From Candidatus Kerfeldbacteria bacterium RIFCSPHIGHO2_12_FULL_48_17 (GTDB lineage: Bacteria; Patescibacteriota; Patescibacteriia; HO2-48-17), in assembly GCA_001818775.1 (NCBI GenBank), contig MHKD01000009.1:1-33408 (forward strand): 33,408 bases of DNA. The letters are read 5' to 3'. Shown piece after piece: positions 8,766 through 9,850 of the stretch. The notes under the pieces are model-generated. The model did no database searches. It had not been told where the DNA came from and saw only the letters and a program-made list of their open reading frames with translations. The position numbers and the translations under genes are program-made. Numbering within the stretch: the first letter of the stretch is position 1; each line of letters begins with the position of its first letter.

Positions 8766-9362
8766 CTACACGCCTTGGATGACGTAGCTGTTGAGAATTT
8801 CGGGTTGGAGTTTGCGGTTGACGCGCATTTCCAGCGCATGGGCCGGATGATCAATCTGCTGCGGATCATCACTGATGGCATGAATTTCTTTGAGCCAGGT
8901 GCCGATGACACGACCATGAGCAACGATCATGATACGATCTTCATCTGACGCCAGAATTTTTTCGAAGGTTTGATGAACGCGACGAACAAAATCTTCATAT
9001 TTTTCACCCTGGAGTGCATGGGAGCGGTAGTAGGCCAACTTGCGAACTTCTTCCGGGTAATGACGCTGCGCCTGTTCCGGTGTGAGACCGGTGAGCAGAC
9101 CTTCACGGTTCCAATCAGTGAGACCACCTTCGACAATGATGTTGGCCAGAACATAACGGCCAATGATGCGGGCAGCTTCGTGTGCGCGCTCGAGTGGACT
9201 GACATAAATAGCATCAAGCGGCGTGACATGAAAACGAAAACCGATGTGATGCATCTGTTTTTGACCCTGCTCGGTGAGCGGGTGATCGGAATGGCCGGAA
9301 AACCAGCCCTCAGCTTCGTCGCGGCTTTCGCCATGACGAATAAAATAGAGTGTTTTTTTCAT
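8766..9362 (-). CDS. Histidine phosphatase family (phosphoglycerate mutase-like) protein
   Basis: FIRHGESRDEAEGWFSGHSDHPLTEQG and IMIVAHGRVI motifs. Confidence 0.85.
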   Translation of the reverse strand: MKKTLYFIRHGESRDEAEGWFSGHSDHPLTEQGQKQMHHIGFRFHVTPLDAIYVSPLERAHEAARIIGRYVLANIIVEGGLTDWNREGLLTGLTPEQAQRHYPEEVRKLAYYRSHALQGEKYEDFVRRVHQTFEKILASDEDRIMIVAHGRVIGTWLKEIHAISDDPQQIDHPAHALEMRVNRKLQPEILNSYVIQGV

Positions 9363-9525
9363 TGTTTTTCGACAAGCGGGTGAATGTGTTTATTATAGAG
9401 TATGACGGGATTTTTGTCATGGTGCGGTAGTTGACCCATAAAGGGCTTTGTGGTATTTTGATGACATTGTTGGCCGAAAATGCGCTGAAACATACGCGTT
9501 ATATATGTGCGGCCGGCGATAGTAT

Positions 9526-9817
9526 TCCGGGGTAGCTCAGCGGTAGAGCAATCGGCTGTGAACCATAAACGCAGCTTCCAAAGGAAACTTTGGCTGAAAC
9601 TCTTTGGGATAACGGTGAAGCCCTCCTGTGAAATTTGCCTTGTGCGAAAAAACAAAGGGTAATACCGTGGGAACTCCATTCGTGGAGAGCGCCGTAGAGA
9701 CTAGATACCAAAGCACCTACAGCGAAAGCTATGGTGAAGATATAGTCCACCCCTTATAGAAACATAAGGATACGTGTAACCGATGGGTCGTGGGTTCGAA
9801 TCCCACCCCCGGAGCCA
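9526..9817 (+). tRNA. tRNA-Asn(GUU) interrupted by a group I-like intron (exons 9526-9559 and 9777-9817, CCA encoded)
   Basis: Joined exons TCCGGGG TA GCTC AGCGGTA GAGC A ATCGG CTGTTAA CCGAT GGGTC GTGGG TTCGAAT CCCAC CCCCGGA G CCA form a complete cloverleaf with anticodon GTT and discriminator G. Confidence 0.9.
9560..9776 (+). ncRNA. Group I self-splicing intron (predicted), ~217 nt, no ORF
   Basis: 5' exon ends in U and intron ends in G; exon GCUGU pairs with intron GCAGC 9571-9575 (terminal U.G); P2-like CCAAAG-GAAA-CTTTGG 9578-9593; CTCCA-TTCG-TGGAG 9674-9687; P7-like GACTA 9699-9703 / TAGTC 9743-9747 in the aagatatagtcc context; P9-like CCTTAT/ATAAGG 9752-9769. Confidence 0.88.
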
Positions 9818-9823
9818 AATATA

Positions 9824-9850
9824 AAAAAACTCGCCACGGGCGGGTTTTTT
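9824..9850 (+). terminator. Rho-independent terminator after the tRNA
   Basis: AACTCGCC-ACG-GGCGGGTT plus T-run. Confidence 0.8.

Follow-up and report, generated by a model that had tools for sequence, protein, structure and literature searches.

Group I introns of bacterial tRNA genes lie mostly at position 37/38 (review PMC4033280). One comparison is provided by the introns of tRNA-Leu(UAA), tRNA-fMet, tRNA-Ile(CAU) and tRNA-Arg(CCU) in bacteria and plastids, which, like the intron described here, are small ribozymes of the anticodon loop with a U.G pair at the 5' splice site and a terminal G. Their hosts and site, however, are unlike those of the present intron, which resides at position 35/36 of tRNA-Asn(GUU). 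In the CPR/Patescibacteria, the phylum to which the present genome belongs, group I introns have been described in rRNA genes (PMC11270868), and this genome also has matches in its 23S region. Those introns have rRNA hosts and often carry LAGLIDADG genes, whereas the present one has a tRNA host and relatives with HNH genes.

Two further reports concern tRNA genes of this phylum. Passages of a study of circularised CPR genomes state that some CPR tRNAs contain group I introns that hinder detection; neither the host tRNA nor the site or structure is named in these passages (PMC8172020). Recently, a novel tRNA insertion site of group I introns in Patescibacteria was announced by Nakagawa, Amikura, Omae and Suzuki (bioRxiv 10.1101/2025.07.03.662931, a reference in PMC12641178). 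Going by its title, which matches the present case in element class, phylum and tRNA genes, that work probably covers the same phenomenon. A search of the available literature for a bacterial tRNA-Asn group I intron turned up no paper. The intron is thus presented as a real example of a known element type at a little-described site, and the group to which it belongs has probably been described already.

The interrupted tRNA-Asn gene and its intron

The window is a stretch of 33,408 nucleotides (contig MHKD01000009.1, positions 1 to 33,408) from Candidatus Kerfeldbacteria bacterium RIFCSPHIGHO2_12_FULL_48_17, whose genome assembly comprises 1.22 Mb in 45 contigs and is 91% complete. On the sequence evidence, positions 9526-9559 and 9777-9817 are a tRNA-Asn(GUU) gene, and 9560-9776 is a group I intron. 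The gene is flanked by a histidine-phosphatase gene and a HAD-hydrolase gene. The features, all on the plus strand, are as follows.

9526..9559, +, 5' exon of tRNA-Asn(GUU), nucleotides 1-35 (ARAGORN on the spliced sequence)
9560..9776, +, group I intron of 217 nt at tRNA positions 35/36 (cmscan RF00028, E 2e-9; covariation)
9571..9576, +, internal guide sequence, forming P1 with exon 9554-9559, U9559.G9571 at the splice site (U.G, G-C, U-A and C-G invariant in 11 introns)
9578..9593, +, P2 hairpin with GAAA loop (compensatory change in 6/6 pairs)
9602..9607, +, P3 5' strand, partner 9708-9713 (compensatory change in 4/6 pairs; 100% paired)
9612..9668, +, P4 (9612-9616/9664-9668; 100% paired, one compensatory pair) and P5 (9621-9623/9657-9659; two compensatory pairs)
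9670..9693, +, P6/P6a (P6a with compensatory change in 4/5 pairs; P6 invariant)
9699..9703, +, P7 5' strand GACTA, partner 9743-9747, P3/P7 pseudoknot (100% paired in 11 introns, nearly invariant, with little covariation evidence)
9708..9713, +, P3 3' strand (11-intron covariation analysis)
9714..9736, +, P8 hairpin, 9714-9717/9733-9736 (compensatory change in 3/4 pairs, the fourth invariant)
9743..9747, +, P7 3' strand TAGTC (11-intron covariation analysis)
9749..9775, +, P9.0 (9749-9750/9774-9775) and P9 hairpin (9752-9757/9764-9769); P9.0 is AC/GU, GU/AC or AU/AU across relatives
9776..9776, +, terminal (omega) G (a G precedes the 3' exon in every aligned same-site group I intron)
9777..9817, +, 3' exon of tRNA-Asn(GUU), nucleotide 36 to the encoded CCA (ARAGORN on the spliced sequence)
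9830..9850, +, likely intrinsic terminator, CTCGCC ACG GGCGGG TTTTTT (read from the sequence; this hairpin was not reported by an automatic terminator scan)

A preliminary description, made from the DNA letters alone, had proposed that a cloverleaf appears only once 9560-9776 is removed, and ARAGORN bears this out: no tRNA is detected in the unspliced window, while excision yields tRNA-Asn(gtt) of 75 nt with every stem paired, including an acceptor of 7 bp. The cuts after U9559 and G9776 give the predicted loop CTGTTAA, anticodon GUU and discriminator G, and the CCA is encoded. The same description had suggested an Infernal search, which places Intron_gpI (RF00028) at 9549-9769 over the full model length. 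The match is significant (E = 2e-9), but its 43.5 bits fall below the Rfam gathering score of 50 bits. Taken alone, the window sequence therefore gives a borderline group I call on covariance-model score; it is the same-site relatives and their covariation that exclude chance.

Covariation was assessed in 11 window-type introns from the same site, using a P1-P9 structure with 52 proposed pairs, in which 90% of the cells are standard pairs. Compensatory changes occur in 28 of the 52 pairs, compared with a mean of 15 in shuffled sets, none of which (0/500) reaches 28, and sliding the pairing partners lowers the count to 6-11. Minimum free energy folding is only modestly better than that of shuffled sequences (z -2.1). 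The helices of a minimal group I core, as first outlined from the window, hold up, with strong covariation in P2, P3 and P8. The P7-like GACTA/TAGTC pairing was likewise located as described and, being nearly invariant, rests on conservation. Several relatives have weak P5 and P9 helices.

The pairing of exon GCUGU with intron GCAGC (9571-9575), leaving U.G at the splice site, had also been read correctly. Across the 11 introns the pairs of C32-U33-G34-U35 are invariant, and the adjoining pair is broken in six; since the invariant part of P1 is confined to C32-U35, the guide appears to recognise the loop, which is conserved, and not the variable stem. A guide directed at the loop can account for the ability of a single intron lineage to fit many tRNA-Asn genes. 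At the other end, both P9.0 pairs show compensatory changes, and because they change together, the 3' splice site is set after G9776; with the invariant U.G, both splice sites are thereby fixed. A P10 sought by eye gave no convincing pairing. Forward open reading frames over the intron reach at most 51 aa and none is endonuclease-like, as had been claimed, and an antisense frame of 106 aa (9359-9679) has no Pfam match.

Further group I matches were observed in the same genome. Its second split tRNA is tRNA-Phe(GAA) on contig C44 (L003:1469-1757, minus strand), interrupted at 33/34 with an RF00028 match of 59.5 bits, in which exon GGACU, as read from the sequence, pairs with GGUCC, leaving U33.G. 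In addition, the 23S rRNA gene on contig C5 (L070:5700-10300) is interrupted by eight group I matches, two of them above the cut-off.

Same-site relatives and the intron lineage

A DNA search over 57 related genomes, in most of which tRNA-Asn is uninterrupted, yielded introns at the same site, which were aligned by their exons. When 16 such relatives were scanned with RF00028, 13 matched at 45-93 bits, nine of them above the cut-off of 50, and several, like the window intron, fell just under it; for the aligned relatives L041, L247 and L258 no match was listed at E 0.001. The wider search for homologous genes that the preliminary description had recommended used a strict pattern of exons plus guide, in order. 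It recovered split tRNA-Asn genes in at least 36 of 381 genomes of the class (about one tenth) and at least 25 of 380 genomes of the phylum, with zero matches to a reversed-pattern control in each genome listed; these counts are lower bounds, as the pattern misses introns with an open reading frame between splice site and guide. The Asn host split at 35/36, which had been called less familiar, does fall outside the Leu, fMet, Ile and Arg set, but the site recurs beyond this genome.

Intact tRNA-Asn genes were sought with a similarly strict pattern, which matched 149 of the 381 class genomes. One match, in G344, is false, arising only because the intron there starts with TAATC, and was dropped. 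Separate pattern scans of genome and viral contigs had also picked up 111 intact tRNA-His(GUG) genes, which were filtered out with ARAGORN. An intact gene accompanies the split one in 2 of 36 genomes (G257 and G369), compared with 146 of the 345 other class genomes (Fisher p 3e-6), a test in which the pattern is strict, absence is not proof and the genomes are not independent. Co-occurrence being so rare, class genomes with a split gene appear, as a rule, to have no other source of tRNA-Asn. In the window's own genome, where a second intact tRNA-Asn(GUU) would have weighed against the split gene, none was found among 40 tRNA matches or by pattern in the 91%-complete assembly, from which such a copy could be absent. 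The gene is read as single-copy and as probably essential.

A tree built from 48 same-site introns places the window intron in a clade of 13 rows (support 100/100) covering ten family groups of the class and one further Patescibacteria record; deeper branches are poorly supported. Two introns of this clade, L044 and L262, exceed 500 nt. HNH genes lie inside three same-site introns, L044 within the clade and L046 and L048 outside it, in each case between the 5' splice site and the guide, in the loop of P1. Their identity comes from PHROGs (best E 2.4e-29; 2.8e-26 for L044); Pfam gave no significant match for the open reading frames of the relatives. The statement that there is no homing endonuclease is therefore true of the window copy, but not of its closest clade. 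As some of its relatives carry such genes and it does not, the best reading is that the window intron descends from a mobile lineage but lacks the endonuclease.

The L044 intron, from class member G013, is identical to that of L135, a Kerfeldbacteria record (PEXU01000006). Same-site tRNA-Asn introns were also observed in MAG records of Ignavibacteriota and Bacteroidota (L082 and L129), which group together with support 100/98 and reflect either horizontal transfer or misbinned contigs.

Phage elements at the tRNA-Asn junction

According to a 2014 review, no phage introns were known outside protein genes (PMC3984707). Here, tRNA-Asn genes of phages (L201, L207, L210, L216, L218, L222, L224 and L237) were found with introns of about 200-210 nt. 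The group I intron in L207 (3273-3477, minus strand) matches RF00028 at 58.8 bits, above the cut-off, and introns of the L201 type contain guide and P7-like motifs by sequence reading. A predicted tRNA-Ile(UAU) in a 485-kb phage (L275:479-765, LR745208.1) has an insert of 210 nt with a core that matches the window intron at 76% identity. RF00028 did not match the L201 locus or, at E 0.01, the L275 locus, so their assignment rests on sequence reading and similarity. In Salmonella phage SPLA3 (Seoulvirus; L276:1395-1662), 57 bases share 84% identity with the 3' part of the window intron. This stretch sits between two open reading frames annotated as RNA polymerase beta subunit, and a group I intron in that gene is likely.

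Viral contigs also contain a second kind of element at the tRNA-Asn 35/36 junction, namely nine sequence families of inserts of 43-109 nt (loci L196, L197, L211, L228, L230, L233, L282, L316 and L341) that are not group I introns. These inserts have a terminal acceptor-like helix and a hairpin resembling a T-arm, in most cases with an inner hairpin as well, and the L233 insert is almost a whole tRNA, ending in GCCA. Base-shuffled versions show the T-arm and terminal helix in 0.1-2% of cases (six families tested). A literature search revealed no such nested elements, and the inserts may represent small tRNA introns of a new kind. RNA ligase domains occur in six insert-bearing contigs and were not found in contigs of the L196 family; the association is only suggestive, since RNA ligase genes are common in large phages in any case. 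Tentatively, and with somewhat less than even confidence, the CUGU|U junction of tRNA-Asn(GUU) may be a hot spot shared by at least two unrelated kinds of anticodon-splitting element: group I introns in Patescibacteria, a few Bacteroidota and Ignavibacteriota records and phages, and the tRNA-like inserts of large phages, perhaps excised by enzymes that act on tRNA ends, with phage RNA ligases rejoining the cut RNA.

Proposed splicing and its consequences for Patescibacteria

The preferred reading, to which we assign a probability of about 0.94, is that a single-copy and probably essential tRNA-Asn(GUU) gene is interrupted by a compact group I intron, whose catalysis and homing history, like the essentiality of the gene, we infer. 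The anatomy of the intron lends support to splicing in two steps started by guanosine, as is usual for group I introns. The intron would fold within the precursor RNA, and the guide GCAGC would pair with CUGU of the anticodon loop and, in this case, the adjoining G. An external guanosine would then attack after U35, the freed U35 would attack after the omega G9776, and the exons would join to form the loop CUGUUAA. The lineage probably spread by endonuclease homing; the window copy is devoid of an endonuclease gene.

Whether such an intron would act strictly by itself is a separate matter. The present core is complete and compact, with P2 and P9 hairpins, and in this it resembles small tRNA introns known to splice without help. 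Against this, the weakness of P5 and P9 among the relatives would fit a need for a maturase or RNA chaperone, and such helpers are common for group I introns, CYT-18 being an example (PMC3984707); a group I intron dependent on a protein is therefore conceivable here, though rather unlikely. Removal by protein enzymes, as for archaeal and eukaryotic tRNA introns, agrees with the location of the insert within the anticodon loop, but it is very improbable given the group I model match, the guide with its U.G, P9.0 and the terminal G, together with a site at 35/36 rather than the canonical 37/38.

The intron might instead be dead within a decayed tRNA gene, with tRNA-Asn supplied by an intact gene that the incomplete assembly lacks. 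There is a precedent for such a pair in G257 (L255:1046-1606), where the split tRNA-Asn has an intact counterpart about 300 bases upstream. Nevertheless, the exons in the window are perfect, core pairs have been kept through compensatory change and split and intact genes seldom co-occur, leaving decay improbable. An assembly chimera or artefact, which the fragmentation into 45 contigs might invite, has a negligible probability, as identical junctions recur in dozens of independent genomes and in a separate contig collection.

For the interrupted, group I intron-bearing tRNA-Asn gene, several consequences follow. Standard tRNA finders can miss the sole tRNA-Asn gene in such genomes, and tRNA isotypes reported missing in Patescibacteria can be false absences. 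Because same-site relatives are many, some with an HNH gene and others without, it can be tested directly how tRNA introns spread and are lost. Furthermore, if splicing proceeds as proposed, these reduced cells, in order to read asparagine codons, would depend on a ribozyme that cuts within the anticodon.
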